In this document: one piece after another, positions 40,735-47,740 of the stretch | How the letters are laid out: every line of letters begins with the position of its first letter | How positions within the stretch are numbered: position 1 is the first letter of the stretch | Assembly: GCA_019636235.1 (NCBI GenBank) | Contig: JAHBXW010000002.1 | Location: 124,001-188,000 of the forward strand | Length of the DNA stretch: 64,000 bases | Reading direction: 5' to 3' | Origin: Planctomyces sp. | GTDB taxonomy: Bacteria > Planctomycetota > Planctomycetia > Planctomycetales > Planctomycetaceae | Position numbers and translations under genes: made by a program | Notes under the pieces: model-generated | What the model was told of the DNA's origin: nothing | What the model saw: only the letters and a program-made list of their open reading frames with translations | Databases searched by the model: none

Positions 40735-43341
40735 CTAGTTGGGAACGTCTCCAGTTTCCGTGATCAGCACCCGCCGGATGCTGCCTTCCTGTCCTCCATA
40801 GAGGATGCCATTGAAGGCGTCCCGGATCGATTCCTTGAGCGTGTTCTGGACCTCAGGCGTTGTCAGCGTGTCGACGGGTTCCCCGGAGAGTCGGTTGACC
40901 AGCCAATCCTGGAGCTCGGGCCGATGGTCTCTCACCTGGTTCTCCACTTCCTCCCTGGAATTCTGGTCAACTTCCAGCGCGATGCTCAAATAGGTGCGCT
41001 GGCCGCTGTCTCCTCCGCCTACGACCAGGGCGCCGAAATTCACGAGTCCGTGCGGCGCGTCCGTCGTCAACATTGTCGCTCGGCGGCCCCCGGAGGCGCC
41101 CACGCCTCCGCCGGCCATGCCACGGCCCATCGTCATCGACGAGCGGCCGCCCCCGCTGGCCCGGCCGCCGCCAGCGCGCCTCATCATGGCGCCCGCTGAT
41201 TCCGCGGGCGGAAAACCCCCGCTGCGCCCGGCCCCTGCCGTGGGGGGCGCTGACGGCGGAGCCCCCATACCCGTGCTGGCCTGGCCGCCGCCGCTGCCCC
41301 TCATCATGGAACCCTGGGGGCCCATGGACGAAGAATATCCCAACTTGCCGCTCATGTCGGGGGCCGAGCCTCCCGCGCCCGGACCTGACTGCGACATCGT
41401 CCTCGATGTCCGCATCGAACTCGCATGCAGGGCGAGCTGGTCCAGGAGGCCCACGATCTCCCGGTGGGCGGGCTGCGACTGCGTGACGATCAACGCCCCG
41501 TCGATCGCTTCGATCCAGCCGCGTTCATCGCCGCCGATCGGGACGCCCATGCCGCCGCCGCCGCCCAACATGCCGCTCATCATCCCGGCGGCGGAGACCA
41601 TGGACGCGCTGCCGCGGGACTGCGGAATCCACGTGCCAAGCGCCACCGAGTTGCGGATGACCCGCGCGAGGATGTCGGGCGTCAGCGTGCCAAAGTCCCG
41701 CACGTCGTAGACCCGGGTTTCCACCTGCTCCGAGGCGTAGTCCTGCGTAGTGATCTGCAGCACTTCGTCCTGGATGAGGTAGTCCAGCGACGCGCCTTCC
41801 ACGGAATCCAGCATCTGCCGCAGGGCGGAGGCCAGCGAAACTCCACCGACTTCAATGCTGATCGGAGTCGCATCGGCGACGCCCTGTTCGGCCAGTCGCT
41901 TCCGATCCAGCCGGATGGGTATGCCGCGTTCCCCGGAGATATACGTCATGGCGTCCGAGAGTCCGGTATCAACAAAGTTCAGAGCGATTGGTTCCTTGAG
42001 CGAAGCCAGGATGCGCTGTTCGTTGGGCTTGCGGAGCGCGTAGTCGACGATGGAATCGGCCGGTCCGGCGCCGGGACTTGTCATCGGTCCGCCCATGCCG
42101 CCGGACATGCCGCCGGACATGCCGCCGCCCATCATCATGGCCCCGAACGACTGGTCTCCCTGCGGAGGCTCACCCGCTCCCGCGACACCCGCACCGCCGC
42201 CGCTTCCCGAAAGGCCGCTGCTGCCAATGACGCCGGTGTCGGGGTTGAGCGTCCCGTCTCCGCCCCCGGCCCAGTTGGTGTCTCCGCCGAGGCCCGCTCC
42301 CCCGCCCGCTCCGGGCGCGGCCCCGCCGAGAACGCCGATGCCGCCCCCTCCGTCCTCGATCAATGCCGTCCCGCCCTGCGGCGGCGCGGCCGATCCGCCC
42401 GCCAGCGTTCCGCCCCCGAACTCGGCGCCGTCGTCCGCGTCGTCGTCGACGACCGACGTGATTCCCGGCTGACCTTCAGCGGACGCCCGGGGCAGATGCG
42501 CCTCCGCCGAAATCACACCGACGGCCGCGACGCCGCCGACCACGGAACTCCATAACAGCGTTGTTTTCATGATGGTCGCCCTGGACATGAGGATCAGTTC
42601 CCTGGCTGCGAGGTGAGTCGCTTCCGGCGAGATGAGGGGCGGCAGCGTAGCGCCGGTCGCCGCCGCGATGCAGGCTTTCGCCGTCGCGGAAACAAGGGGG
42701 GCCGCGACAGCCGCTTCCGCGGGGGCCGCCAGAATGTTCGCGGCCGTCACAACCGCCGAAATTCCAATCCCCCGTCGCACCAGCCGCAGTTGCAGCTCCC
42801 GCCGACCCCGACGCAATCGACCTTCCACGCACGACACGCTCAGCCCGAGCTCTTCGGCGATCTCGGCTGCCGACTTGTCCTGGAGATAGTGCAGCAGCAA
42901 CGGTCCGCGGATCGGCTCGGGCATCCGGGCCAGCTCCTCGTCCAGCGCCGTCTGCTCTTCCAGTTTCGCCAGTTCGTCGAACGCCGCCGCCGATTCATCG
43001 GGAGGCATGGCACACTCCCGCCGACGCTGTCTCCGCGCCAGCGATTTCCGGGCGACCCGGAATGCCGTCCCGTGCAGCCACGCCGCGAGCGATTCGCGAT
43101 TGCGGATCGACTTCGCCTGCTGCGCCAGGATCAGGAACGTCGCCTGGAACACGTCCTCGGCCGCATGCCGGTCGCGCAGCACGCGCCACGCCACCGCCAT
43201 GACCAGGCCGCCATGCCGGGCGACCAGTTCGCCAAATGCCGACTCCTCGCGGTCGCCCAGGAATCGGTCCACGAGGTCCCGATCCCGAAGTTCCCGCGGC
43301 GAAGGGCAGTGCGACACCGATTCGACCGGCATTCGAGGCAT
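40735..43341 (-). CDS. ECF sigma factor fused to membrane segment, STN-like and FliL-like domains
   Basis: The single 868-residue frame has these parts in order. Residues 20-105 are sigma-70 region 2 (LVDRFLGDREESAFGELV, AEDVFQATFLILAQQAKSI). Residues 125-190 are region 4 with its helix-turn-helix (KSAAEIAEELGLSVSCVEGR). Residues 190-280 hold Ala-rich and hydrophobic stretches, with the likely transmembrane helix at 262-278. Residues 285-425 are Gly/Met-rich linker. Residues 448-640 are an STN/secretin-short-domain-like region (IALNFVDTGLSDAMTYIS, ISIEVGGVSLASALRQML) followed by a beta-alpha module. Residues 765-868 read like FliL (YLSIALEVDQNSREEVENQV, RRVLITE). ECF factors with long extensions are known in planctomycetes; this particular set I have not met. 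Confidence 0.8.
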   Translation of the reverse strand: MPRMPVESVSHCPSPRELRDRDLVDRFLGDREESAFGELVARHGGLVMAVAWRVLRDRHAAEDVFQATFLILAQQAKSIRNRESLAAWLHGTAFRVARKSLARRQRRRECAMPPDESAAAFDELAKLEEQTALDEELARMPEPIRGPLLLHYLQDKSAAEIAEELGLSVSCVEGRLRRGRRELQLRLVRRGIGISAVVTAANILAAPAEAAVAAPLVSATAKACIAAATGATLPPLISPEATHLAARELILMSRATIMKTTLLWSSVVGGVAAVGVISAEAHLPRASAEGQPGITSVVDDDADDGAEFGGGTLAGGSAAPPQGGTALIEDGGGGIGVLGGAAPGAGGGAGLGGDTNWAGGGDGTLNPDTGVIGSSGLSGSGGGAGVAGAGEPPQGDQSFGAMMMGGGMSGGMSGGMGGPMTSPGAGPADSIVDYALRKPNEQRILASLKEPIALNFVDTGLSDAMTYISGERGIPIRLDRKRLAEQGVADATPISIEVGGVSLASALRQMLDSVEGASLDYLIQDEVLQITTQDYASEQVETRVYDVRDFGTLTPDILARVIRNSVALGTWIPQSRGSASMVSAAGMMSGMLGGGGGMGVPIGGDERGWIEAIDGALIVTQSQPAHREIVGLLDQLALHASSMRTSRTMSQSGPGAGGSAPDMSGKLGYSSSMGPQGSMMRGSGGGQASTGMGAPPSAPPTAGAGRSGGFPPAESAGAMMRRAGGGRASGGGRSSMTMGRGMAGGGVGASGGRRATMLTTDAPHGLVNFGALVVGGGDSGQRTYLSIALEVDQNSREEVENQVRDHRPELQDWLVNRLSGEPVDTLTTPEVQNTLKESIRDAFNGILYGGQEGSIRRVLITETGDVPN

Positions 43342-43404: not shown

Positions 43405-44499
43405 TCAACGCGTCGCTCCGATCAGCCGCACCGCGGTTTCGATCGCCGCCCGCATCCCCCCGGCATCCGCCTGTCCCTGACCCGCGATGTCGAACGCAGT
43501 TCCGTGGCTGGGGCTCGTCCGCACGATCGGCAGTCCCAGCGTGACATTCACGGCCCGGTTGAACGCCACCAGCTTGAGCGCTATGTGCCCCTGGTCGTGG
43601 TACATCGCCGCGACGCCATCGAACTCGCCGCCGACCGCCTGCCGCAGCAGCGCGTCCGCCGGGATGGGCCCCCGGGCGTCCAGGGAATCCGCCCGCGCCC
43701 GCTCTACGGCCGGCGCGATCAGCCGGGCCTCTTCGTCGCCGAACCGCCCCGATTCCCCCGCGTGGGGATTCAACGCGCATACGCCGATGCGCGGACTCGC
43801 GCAGCCCGCGCGCCTCAGAAATCGGTCGATCAGCCCGATCGTTTCGAACACGCGCTCCATGCTCAGCAGGCCGGGCACGCTGCGAAGGCTGGTGTGCAGC
43901 GTGACGTGGGCGACTCCCAGCCCGGCAGGCCCGCCGATGCCATGACCGGGCGGGACGTACAGCATCATCGCGAAGTCCCGCACGCCGCATTCATCCGCCA
44001 GAATCTCCGTGTGACCGGGATAGTCGAGTCCCGCGGCCTCCAGCGCCTTCTTGTTCAGCGGAGCCGTGACGATGCCGCCGATCTGGCCGTCGAGGGCCGC
44101 CCGCGCCGCGGCGACCAGCCAGCCATAGGCCGCCTGTCCCGCGCGGCCGTCGATCCGGCCCGGGGGCACGTCAGCAAGATCCCGGGGCAGTTCGATTCGG
44201 CCACGGACGCCGACTGTCGACCTGGGAGACCAGCAGGCGATTCGGTCGGGGTCCGCGGAGGGGACAGGCCCGTCGACCACGTCAATCGCCTGCGGCAGGC
44301 GCAGTTGCTGGGCGGCGCGGCGGACGACCTCCGGATCGCCGACAAGGACCGGCCGGCAGATGCGCAGCGTCTGGGGCGCGGCTGCGGCGGCGACGCTGAC
44401 TTCCGGGCCGATGCCGGCGACATCTCCCAGCGTGAGGGCGAGAATCGGACGCGTGTCCGCGAGGAGAGGGTCGACCGCTGTCAGGGATCCGGCGTTCAC
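43405..44499 (-). CDS. pdxA: 4-hydroxythreonine-4-phosphate dehydrogenase
   Basis: This 364-residue NAD-dependent enzyme works in pyridoxal-phosphate biosynthesis. It has LTLGDVAGIGPEV at the start, TAPLNKKAL, the metal-binding CALNPHAGE and YHDQGHIALK motifs, and a C-terminal TSPSHGTAFDIAG. The start is a GTG at 44499 that shares GTGA with the rfbC stop, so the gene is translationally coupled. The length is then normal. The pdxJ partner is not in the window. Confidence 0.93.
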   Translation of the reverse strand: MNAGSLTAVDPLLADTRPILALTLGDVAGIGPEVSVAAAAAPQTLRICRPVLVGDPEVVRRAAQQLRLPQAIDVVDGPVPSADPDRIACWSPRSTVGVRGRIELPRDLADVPPGRIDGRAGQAAYGWLVAAARAALDGQIGGIVTAPLNKKALEAAGLDYPGHTEILADECGVRDFAMMLYVPPGHGIGGPAGLGVAHVTLHTSLRSVPGLLSMERVFETIGLIDRFLRRAGCASPRIGVCALNPHAGESGRFGDEEARLIAPAVERARADSLDARGPIPADALLRQAVGGEFDGVAAMYHDQGHIALKLVAFNRAVNVTLGLPIVRTSPSHGTAFDIAGQGQADAGGMRAAIETAVRLIGATR

Positions 44500-45038
44500 G
44501 GGTAGACGTCCGCATCGGCCAGCCACGCGCCCTCGCGGTCTTTCGCGGACAGGATCGGCTCGCCGTCGAGGGGCCACTCGACTCCCACGTCCGGATCGTT
44601 CCAGCGGAGCGTCCGCTCATCGCCGGGGGCGTACACGGCCGAACACTTGTACAACACGTCGGCGACCTCCGACCGCACGAAGAACCCGTGCGCGAAGCCG
44701 GCGGGAATCAGCAGCGCCCTGCGGTTTTCGTCCGAGAGTTCGTAACCGGCCCACTGCCCGAACGTCGGCGACGAGCGGCGGAGATCGACGGCGACATCGA
44801 AAATCCGCCCCTGCAGCACGCGGACGAGCTTCGCCTGCGGGCGCGTGAACTGGTAATGCAGGCCGCGCAGCACGCCCTGGATCGAACGCGACAGATTGTC
44901 CTGCGGGAACTCGCTGCACAGGCCGGCTTCGGCGAACCGTCCAGCGTGGAACAGTTCCTGGAACCAGCCGCGATCGTCGTCGAAGACCGTTGGTTCGATG
45001 ATGGACAGACCGGGCAGCCGCCCGGGGACAACGTGCAT
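44496..45038 (-). CDS. rfbC: dTDP-4-dehydrorhamnose 3,5-epimerase
   Basis: The 180-residue cupin-fold epimerase inverts C3 and C5 of dTDP-4-keto-6-deoxy-glucose on the way to dTDP-rhamnose. It has VFDDDRGWFQE, the catalytic His61 in RGLHYQ, Tyr130 in VLYKCSAVY, and PAGFAHGF. The ATG at 45038 has AGGGGAG upstream; a much longer frame before it is not credible. rfbA, rfbB and rfbD are not here, so this gene is separated from the rest of the pathway. It ends in a GTGA overlap with pdxA. Confidence 0.93.
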   Translation of the reverse strand: MHVVPGRLPGLSIIEPTVFDDDRGWFQELFHAGRFAEAGLCSEFPQDNLSRSIQGVLRGLHYQFTRPQAKLVRVLQGRIFDVAVDLRRSSPTFGQWAGYELSDENRRALLIPAGFAHGFFVRSEVADVLYKCSAVYAPGDERTLRWNDPDVGVEWPLDGEPILSAKDREGAWLADADVYP

Positions 45039-45375: not shown

Positions 45376-46467
45376 TCACGGTGCGGGGGCGGCGAGTTCC
45401 CGCCGCCGGGACTCCGCCTCGCGCGCCACGGGCGACCATGGATACCGCTCCGCCGTCTCGGCGAACAGCCGGTCGGCGTCGTCCCGATGCCCCGCCCGCA
45501 ACAGCGCTTCCGCCGCGTCGAACGACGCCCGCGCCGCCGTCGGTTCGTGTTCGGAGTACACCAGCGGGACCCACAGCAGCTCCGCTGCGGCGATGTCGAA
45601 CTCGCTGCGCGCCAGCCGCGCGCGGCCGATCAGATATTGCGGTCCGGCGCGCGTGCCCGGCGGCATGGAGGCCACGTGCGACCGCCAGTTGGCCAGTTCG
45701 TTGTCGCTGATCGCCGTCCCGCTGCGGCGTCTCCAGAGCTGGGCCCGCGCCAGTTGTGAGATGTTCGCGGAGACATCGCGGGCGAGGTCCTGCAGCGCGC
45801 GCTCGGCGGCGTCTCCGAGATTGGCGTCTCCAAGGAGGACGCTCGCGCCGAGGAGACGCGCTGCGGGAACCGTCGACGACATCCGGGAAGACGCGGCCGC
45901 GCGGTCGTCGACGGACAGCGGAGTCGGCGCCCAAAGCAGAGGCGCGACCGGCCAGTGCAGCGTCTCCGGGTCGCTGGCGACGATTTCCAGAAACGCTTCG
46001 CCGGCGTCGGTGAAGCGGCCCTCCCGAAGCAACGTGCGCACGATGCGAGCCCGAAGTTCCCGCTGAACCCAGGCGCGGCTTTCGGTCCGGAGGGCGGCCC
46101 GCCATTCATCAATCGCCGCGGCGTAGTCGCCGGCTTCAAAGGCCTGCTGAGCGCGACGATCCGCTTCCGGGTAGGTCGTCTCGACGCGGACCACGATCGA
46201 CGCGGGCTCTTCGCGGAGTCCGGTCTGCGTCCGGTATCGGATCGTGCGGCCGGTGTAGTCGAGAATCTCCCCGGCCGTCATCAGGGTCTCGGTCGAGTCC
46301 GGCCGCTTGAGGTACAGCTTGTCCTGCGCGGAGAGCGGTCGGCCGAACGCCGCCGTCAGGAGCAGCGCCGCCGGGATCGCTCTGACCAGCCGCGCCGGTA
46401 GAATCGCCGGAAGCCCGCCGCGCCGTGCCGCGGACGAACTCGAGCCCGATTGACCTCCTGCCGCCAT
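45376..46467 (-). CDS. secreted TPR-like protein of unknown function
   Basis: The 363-residue protein has a hydrophobic export signal at about 25-45 (AIPAALLLTAAFGRPLSAQ). A short beta-rich part (LYLKRPDSTETLMTAGEILDYTG) is followed by helical repeats resembling TPRs (RRAQQAFEAGDYAAAIDEWR, AAEALLRAGHRDDADRLFAE). The ATG at 46467 has GGAGG at good spacing, which is strong support; it overlaps the start codon of the divergent gene by two bases. No family name is known to me. The export signal and TPR pattern suggest an envelope scaffold. Confidence 0.72.
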   Translation of the reverse strand: MAAGGQSGSSSSAARRGGLPAILPARLVRAIPAALLLTAAFGRPLSAQDKLYLKRPDSTETLMTAGEILDYTGRTIRYRTQTGLREEPASIVVRVETTYPEADRRAQQAFEAGDYAAAIDEWRAALRTESRAWVQRELRARIVRTLLREGRFTDAGEAFLEIVASDPETLHWPVAPLLWAPTPLSVDDRAAASSRMSSTVPAARLLGASVLLGDANLGDAAERALQDLARDVSANISQLARAQLWRRRSGTAISDNELANWRSHVASMPPGTRAGPQYLIGRARLARSEFDIAAAELLWVPLVYSEHEPTAARASFDAAEALLRAGHRDDADRLFAETAERYPWSPVAREAESRRRELAAPAP

Positions 46468-47740
46468 GACCGACCTCCAGCGTCGCCTGTTCGACGAACT
46501 CGAAACACTGGTTCTGATCGATCCGCACACGCATATCAACCCCCATGCCCCGGCGTCCCGCACGCTCGCGGACATCCTGGGGTACCACTACTACACCGAG
46601 CTGGCGCACTCGTCCGGGGCGGCCAAAGTCCATCTCGATGAAGCGGGAATCGGCCCGAAAGAGCGTGTGGGCCGGATCGTCGAATCGCTGGAGCATCTGG
46701 GAAACACGATCCAGGTGAGCTGGCTGCTGGAAATGGCGCGGGAGTTCTTCGGGTTCGAGCACGAGGCCATCACGTCGCAGAACTGGGAGGGGCTGTACGA
46801 CGCGGCCGTGCGCCGGATGGCGCATCCCGACTGGGAATCGACCGTTCTGGAGAAGAGCCGGCTGGAAAAGGTGTTCCTGACGAACGAGTTCGACGATCCG
46901 CTCGAGGGCTTCGACACGGAGCGGTACGTCCCCTGTCTGCGGACGGACGATCTCGTGTTCAAACTGCATGAGCCGCAGGTCCGCGAGCGGCTGGCAAAGG
47001 CGACCGGGATCGATGGCGGCGGCCGCCGCGCCGTCCGCGAGGCGATCGGCCGGCTGTTCGACCGGTTTGTGAAACGGGGCGCCCGCGCCTGCGCCATCTC
47101 GCTGCCGCCGTGGTTCAGCCCGCATCACGTCGGTGACCAGGAGGCGGACGAGGCGCTCGCCGAGGCGTATTCCGGGGGGGCGTCGGCCAGCGGCGGATTG
47201 CAGTTGAGTCGCTGGGTGTTCTGGACGCTGGCGGAATTTTGCGTGGAGCACCGGCTGCCGTTCGATCTGATGATCGGCGTCAATCGGCGGGTCTACGAGA
47301 ACGGCGTCTACCAGGGGCAGGACCTGTTCGACATGCGGGTCTCGCTGATCCAGTACAAGGACCTGTTCAATGCGTTTCCGCAGGTGACGTTTCCGGTGTC
47401 CGTGCTGGGACACACCAGCAACCAGGAACTGGTCAGCTACGCCTGGATCTTTCCGAACGTGGCGACGAGCGGCCACTGGTGGTATTCGAACATCCCGACG
47501 TACATCGAGCTGGACACGCGGGCGCGCCTGGAGGCTGTCCCGCGCAACAAGCAGATCGGGTACTACAGCGACATGTACAAGCTGGAATTCGCGCTGCCGA
47601 AGTTCCGGATGTACCGGCGGGTTCTCGCGAAAGTTCTGGCGGAGGACTTCGTGATCGGTCGGGGCTGGACGGAGACGCAGGCGCTGGCGCTGGGCCGGCA
47701 GGTGCTCAGGGGCAACGTCGAGCGGATTTTCCGGGTGTGA
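46466..47740 (+). CDS. amidohydrolase-fold protein, uronate isomerase-like
   Basis: The 424-residue protein starts with IDPHTHINPH, the metal-binding HxH of the amidohydrolase superfamily, and continues with long segments of the uronate isomerase (UxaC) type (YVPCLRTDDLVFKLHEPQ, SVLGHTSNQELVSYAW, YYSDMYKLEFALP). It is a little shorter than typical UxaC and diverges from it, so isomerisation of glucuronate is possible but not certain. The ATG at 46466 lacks a ribosome binding site; the CCTCCT just upstream is the reverse-strand signal of the divergent gene. It overlaps that gene's start by two bases. Confidence 0.75.
   Translation: MTDLQRRLFDELETLVLIDPHTHINPHAPASRTLADILGYHYYTELAHSSGAAKVHLDEAGIGPKERVGRIVESLEHLGNTIQVSWLLEMAREFFGFEHEAITSQNWEGLYDAAVRRMAHPDWESTVLEKSRLEKVFLTNEFDDPLEGFDTERYVPCLRTDDLVFKLHEPQVRERLAKATGIDGGGRRAVREAIGRLFDRFVKRGARACAISLPPWFSPHHVGDQEADEALAEAYSGGASASGGLQLSRWVFWTLAEFCVEHRLPFDLMIGVNRRVYENGVYQGQDLFDMRVSLIQYKDLFNAFPQVTFPVSVLGHTSNQELVSYAWIFPNVATSGHWWYSNIPTYIELDTRARLEAVPRNKQIGYYSDMYKLEFALPKFRMYRRVLAKVLAEDFVIGRGWTETQALALGRQVLRGNVERIFRV

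Follow-up and report, generated by a model that had tools for sequence, protein, structure and literature searches.

The window analyzed here, a stretch of 64,000 nucleotides of Planctomyces sp. (GCA_019636235.1, contig JAHBXW010000002.1, positions 124,001 to 188,000), raises the question of whether one reading frame joins an ECF sigma factor, a membrane helix, an STN/secretin-like module and a domain resembling FliL in a single protein, and what such a protein might do. The frame lies at 40735..43341 on the minus strand, and open-reading-frame translation confirmed that it is a single uninterrupted frame of 868 codons (868 aa) with no internal stops, as originally predicted. Third-position GC was 0.71-0.84 across all seven segments of the frame, with a value of 0.75 in the FliL part and 0.81 in the adjoining pdxA; since all segments resemble this neighboring gene, the whole 868-codon frame looks coding. 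Translation may begin at the ATG at 43341, or perhaps at codon 4 (43332), where an AGGA lies 9 nt upstream. The upstream neighbor pdxA (43405..44577, minus strand; PF04166, E = 7.4e-96) lies across a 63-nt gap and is outside the finding; the other neighbors encode a dTDP-sugar epimerase and a TPR protein, with a squalene/phytoene synthase downstream.

Sigma-70 region 2 was found at residues 39-107 (43021..43227, minus strand; PF04542, E = 7.5e-11) and region 4 at residues 132-183 (42793..42948, minus strand; PF08281, E = 1.1e-10). Both scored above the Pfam cut-off, which identifies an ECF sigma factor and bears out the predicted sigma regions; the protein also matched TIGR02937 at 70.5 bits (cut-off, 42.9), and region 3 had no Pfam match in it. 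According to the available part of PMC8999054, two conserved cysteines in ECF57 may link sigma 2 and sigma 4. The window protein has C110 and C171. In an alignment of 15 rows, the window protein and 14 relatives (alignment A1), cysteine occurs at the positions of C110 and C171 in no other row.

The linker from sigma region 4 to the helix (residues 190-260; 42562..42774, minus strand) is conserved in frame in A1. It is followed by a predicted membrane helix at residues 261-279 (42505..42561, minus strand), the most hydrophobic 19-mer of the protein (mean Kyte-Doolittle hydropathy 1.75), in good agreement with the transmembrane helix first placed at 262-278. The helix is flanked by a basic N side and an acidic C side, from which we infer by the positive-inside rule that the hydropathy-predicted helix would be oriented N-in/C-out. 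With a helix after the sigma domain, as judged by hydropathy and in-frame linker conservation, the protein falls among membrane-tethered sigma factors. The locus could instead encode two proteins: a sigma factor translated from the first start and, initiated at an internal ATG (codon 252 or 258), a secreted STN-FliL protein. The helix resembles a signal peptide and has an ASA motif after it, and M252 is common to 9 of the 14 relatives, which makes a start at that codon conceivable on sequence grounds. M258, however, is found in none of the 14, the stretch N-terminal of it is conserved in frame with the sigma part, and L244 and E248, just N-terminal of the helix, are invariant in all 15 rows of A1. 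A separate secreted protein starting near residue 258 is thus not favored, and we give very little credence to the two-protein reading as a whole.

Beyond the helix, two low-complexity spacers set apart the helix, the STN-like module and the FliL domain. Spacer 1 (residues 291-430; 42052..42471, minus strand) is Gly-rich, with 50 Gly among 140 residues, and spacer 2 (residues 653-764; 41050..41385, minus strand) is rich in Gly, Ser, Met and Arg, as judged from the composition of residues 641-760. Between them lie an STN/secretin N0-like domain (residues 438-538; 41728..42030, minus strand), assigned by model, folds and profile, and a second beta-alpha module of the secretin N1 type (residues 540-644; 41410..41724, minus strand), which includes a disordered Gly/Met insert in the predicted model. 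An STN-like segment had been called at 448-533. Pfam found no STN match when the whole protein was scanned, and the segment alone scored 12.3 bits against a cut-off of 28.4 for PF07660 (E = 0.15). A model of residues 428-652, built from an alignment of the window STN segment with 11 named relatives, reached a pLDDT of 82, and its top Foldseek matches were secretin N0-N1 chains (PilQ 4av2, E = 7.5e-6; XcpQ, EscC and GspD). Global TM-scores to secretins were low (0.24-0.32), which we infer to reflect a disordered loop of 30 residues and the freedom of the two domains to take up different relative positions.

Compared by single domain with VIA-align, the module matched a Bacteroidota anti-sigma protein (4m0h, Z 9.4 over 73 residues at 1.8 A), EscC (Z 9.1), PilQ (Z 9.0), the anti-sigma factor PupR (6ovk, Z 8.3) and the receptor FpvA (Z 7.4), and the N1-like part aligned to the type II secretin 8co1 (Z 7.3). 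The STN match thus holds domain by domain, with unrelated phage and injection-system spike proteins close behind (Z 8.1-8.8); absence from the VIA-align or Foldseek lists was not counted as evidence. A profile from the same 12-sequence alignment reached PilQ (E = 0.0098) and the PupA signaling domain (E = 0.024) by sequence. In a whole-genome search, the STN segment matched a 1431-aa frame of the same genome (E = 2.5e-13), with homologous N0 and N1 parts at residues 801-909 and 974-1034. This frame (L173:4289-8584) is a secretin (PF00263, E = 3.4e-19). Fold and homology therefore place the outer module in the STN/secretin N0-N1 superfamily, an N0-type fold followed by an N1-type domain. The expected STN structure was recovered as a fold and not as a PF07660 score above the cut-off, and the additional beta-alpha module of the original prediction was upheld as N1-like by the N0-N1 order of the secretin and by 8co1. 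The PF00263 channel domain had no Pfam match in the window protein, which is accordingly not classed as a secretin.

The same genome also encodes an 854-aa frame with a VWA domain, no secretin channel and a C-terminal STN-type module (L167:2036-4600); this module shares 41% identity with residues 432-551 of the window protein. Many family genomes contain frames, about 850-1070 aa long, that match the same part of the query, and this type may be a conserved uncharacterized VWA-STN protein.

The C-terminal tail carries a FliL-type (SPFH-like) domain at residues 766-865 (40747..41046, minus strand), identified by PF03748, model and folds. PF03748 matched residues 777-862 at 38.2 bits (cut-off, 24.6; E = 2.3e-9). 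A model of residues 752-868, predicted from one sequence alone, reached a pLDDT of 77; FliL chains took Foldseek ranks 1-11 (E 5e-4 to 3.5e-3), and VIA-align gave Z-scores of 11.5 for Helicobacter pylori FliL, 10.6 for Vibrio FliL and 8.4 for stomatin. Furthermore, a profile of 29 stand-alone family FliLs matched the tail at 47.7 bits, and phmmer found H. pylori FliL as a weak match from sequence alone (E = 0.0015). The predicted FliL-like C-terminus is therefore well founded in both Pfam score and fold ranking; of the segment proposed for it, 760-868, the identity held and the boundary shifted, the fold starting near residue 766 after the low-complexity spacer.

The tail has nevertheless diverged from flagellar FliL, which it resembles in Pfam score and fold. 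Its mean identity to 31 stand-alone family FliLs is 25% (21-30%) versus a mean of 53% among those FliLs, and of the 46 columns that at least 75% of these FliLs conserve it retains 19, including F769, Y784, L785, W813, L814, N833, F843 and N844, while the family signature stretches RG..G..LRRE and EFNVQ are lost. A flagellar FliL is a short protein with an N-terminal helix directly before the domain; the tail, in contrast, has no N-terminal helix of its own and ends an 868-aa chain, about 490 residues away from the membrane helix. A recent copy of the FliL of the same genome is not favored as its origin, the two being 28% identical and the tail no closer to this FliL than to others. A clue from the ring interface was also set aside: at the position equivalent to Vibrio L109 the tail has E809, but E is also present there in 2 of the 31 stand-alone FliLs.

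The distribution of these parts among planctomycetes was examined at several levels. A scan of genome contigs with the single window protein as query found no relative; a scan with alignment A1, using patterns of the sigma part, returned at least 80 named planctomycete-type loci, one of them labeled Bdellovibrio. These loci contain 85 sigma frames, with an STN match by blastp in 12 of the 85. A hydrophobic stretch lies within 150 residues after region 4 in 77 of the 83 frames that have at least 100 residues after this region (2 shorter frames were dropped), and at least 13 of the 83 extensions carry WD40, counted among the best 25 of 125 families. A separate sigma search of 150 family genomes gave 29 loci, and in 19 of these the sigma frame also carries the STN module.

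The FliL domain behaves differently from the STN module. When all frames of 161 loci were scanned with the FliL profile, the only matches longer than 260 aa were stand-alone FliLs (263-276 aa) and the window gene. A query with the FliL tail matched in 40 of 170 family genomes and in 9 of 392 genomes of a phylum sample that includes family members (the order is represented by the same 170 genomes as the family), and the matches other than the window gene were frames of 174-306 aa. The Pfam FliL model matched in 85 of the 170 family genomes, with all other listed frames at 77-276 aa, and in at least 138 of the 392 phylum genomes. Among the phylum matches listed, Pfam found a sigma domain in none of 15 other FliL frames of at least 300 aa; by eye, these are mostly ordinary FliLs whose frame is left open upstream. 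No second sigma-FliL frame was present among the matches listed for the 170 family and 392 phylum genomes, so the FliL tail on a sigma frame was seen in one genome; no earlier report of a sigma-FliL protein was found in the limited collection of literature searched. Taken together, sigma part, helix and variable outer part form a widespread planctomycete chassis in which the STN module is common and the FliL tail is the odd part. The original suggestion of an unusual domain set therefore applies to the tail and not to the sigma-STN combination, and the search for the same order elsewhere recovered sigma and STN in one frame and, among the matches listed, no FliL tail.

Two further frames with a FliL end above the Pfam cut-off, L194:1174-2268 (genome G290) and L193:865-1860 (genome G328), are lipoprotein-like and apparently not ordinary flagellar FliLs; since they look like lipoproteins with a FliL end, the FliL domain appears to have been borrowed elsewhere too.

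A tree built from 70 sigma parts placed the window protein as sister to a protein of the same genus (SH-aLRT 95) from G028, the only other genome compared for this genus, and nested the pair in a clade of 10 rows (SH-aLRT 97). The STN module is present in 8 of the 10 members, and neither the profile nor Pfam found FliL in any of the nine members other than the window protein. The sister (L164:6981-9449) has 822 aa and ends after the N1 part, and its genome has a stand-alone FliL of its own elsewhere. With nine other clade members free of FliL, addition of the tail on the window branch is the simplest reading, and the tail was probably gained on the branch to the window species, once this had diverged from the same-genus sister; loss of the tail in G028 is a possible alternative. 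The sister has two STN-like modules (residues 430-503 and 638-820), a doubling that, at the level of sequence, shows turnover of the outer part. The absence of pdxA next to the sister gene removed a possible operon clue; the 17-kb stretch that contains the sister gene also has a homologue of the TPR gene of the window (45376-46575).

Sequence together with predicted fold establishes the domains and their order: sigma region 2, region 4, predicted helix, N0-N1-like module and diverged FliL domain; likeness of fold does not by itself demonstrate a function. We read the protein as a membrane-tethered one-component ECF sigma factor with an STN outer part, a sigma part released by a signal and a recruited FliL tail for interaction or oligomerization, a reading to which we assign a probability of about one half. 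The sigma part would be held inactive at the membrane in the cytoplasm, and the outer STN module would meet an envelope partner or ligand, as the STN-fold periplasmic domain of FecR/PupR-type proteins does. A signal might then free the sigma part, either by cleavage at the membrane, as in IutY, or by a conformational change. The tail would most likely be a recruited SPFH-like interaction or oligomerization module, serving to cluster the protein or to provide a second docking surface within the envelope.

Several known systems resemble this arrangement in part. The excerpt of PMC8999054 describes IutY (ECF243) as a sigma/anti-sigma fusion whose sigma part is released by cleavage at the membrane, and names ECF42 and ECF57 as precedents for an interaction-driven change. 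IutY, like the window protein, runs in one chain from sigma to membrane to a periplasmic regulatory part; the window protein differs in lacking a FecR anti-sigma domain by Pfam and has no known TonB receptor partner. FecR/PupR-type anti-sigma factors share the STN-fold periplasmic domain (4m0h and PupR above), but are separate from their sigma factors and have no FliL domain. The shared fold suggests that sigma and anti-sigma functions are united in one chain; Pfam detected no anti-sigma domain in the window protein. The likeness to ECF57-like planctomycete ECFs, as that excerpt presents them, is one of layout: sigma 2 and 4 precede a long C-terminal extension, which differs from member to member, with a WD40 extension there and STN-N1 plus FliL here. 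The secretins PilQ, GspD and XcpQ share the N0-N1 order and fold, but have the channel domain that is absent from the window protein.

It is plausible, on the modeled folds, that the protein senses the state of an envelope machine, as first proposed, and two such machines deserve consideration. One is the genome's own secretin, on whose N0-N1 ring the outer part might dock and report the assembly of a pilus or type II secretion system, leaving the FliL tail incidental. The homology of the STN-N1 module to residues 801-1034 of the 1431-aa secretin speaks for this; however, the same module occurs in the VWA protein, which has no secretin channel and thereby marks STN-N1 as a general-purpose module in planctomycetes, and we consider docking on the secretin unlikely. 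The other machine is the flagellar motor: the tail might join or mimic the FliL ring around the stator and report motor assembly or load directly to the sigma factor, for instance when a swimming bud turns into an attached cell. On another contig, the genome does encode a stand-alone FliL next to FliM, close to FlhA and a FliA-like sigma factor, and on a third it has a gene for a MotB-type stator protein; moreover, the tail fold ranks FliL before stomatin, and FliL has been linked to mechanosensing in the accessible part of PMC6426602. The same source reports that Vibrio FliL forms rings around the stator and that the FliL-stator complex depends on linker length, whereas the tail sits some 490 residues from the helix, shows the low identity and lost signature stretches described above, and is encoded among pdxA, epimerase and squalene/phytoene synthase genes. 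Flagellar coupling is thus rather improbable, and its strictest form, in which the tail of a single polypeptide assembles into the FliL/stator ring and the sigma part is freed by the state of the motor for a swimming/attached switch, still more so. The divergence and placement of the tail weaken the flagellar version of envelope sensing, and its distance from the helix and lost signature residues make a general role in interaction or oligomerization the preferred one.

The tail might also be functionless, the product of a neutral or recent joining or of an assembly slip, in keeping with its presence in one genome and its strong divergence from stand-alone FliLs. Its frame is free of stops, though, with the coding-like third-position GC already given, and its fold could be predicted from one sequence at a pLDDT of 77, which indicates that the core of the domain was kept after long divergence; we regard a functionless tail as highly improbable.

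The preferred reading, a tethered one-component sigma factor with a recruited tail, bears on a group in which many sigma factors have long outer extensions and few have been studied. As the window protein shows, the outer end has a modular build, and recruitment can put a FliL-type (SPFH-like) domain to uses other than that of an ordinary flagellar FliL. Should the tail still bind the motor, a single protein would link motor state to gene expression; even without motor binding, the chassis with a secretin-type module would be a one-component alternative to the relay of sigma factor, anti-sigma factor and receptor.

A second FliL-like family was also compared with the tail, and no relation was shown (best blastp E 0.32); the comparison covered 13 regions, of which L178, L184 and L186 are uninformative, their frames not being plausible FliLs. 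The family consists of proteins of about 200 aa in Planctomycetaceae (L174-L177, L179-L183 and L185) that match PF03748 weakly and share a common pattern around RVR, DLND and REEIN. Genomes G012 and G026 each have a member of this family besides a strong FliL.
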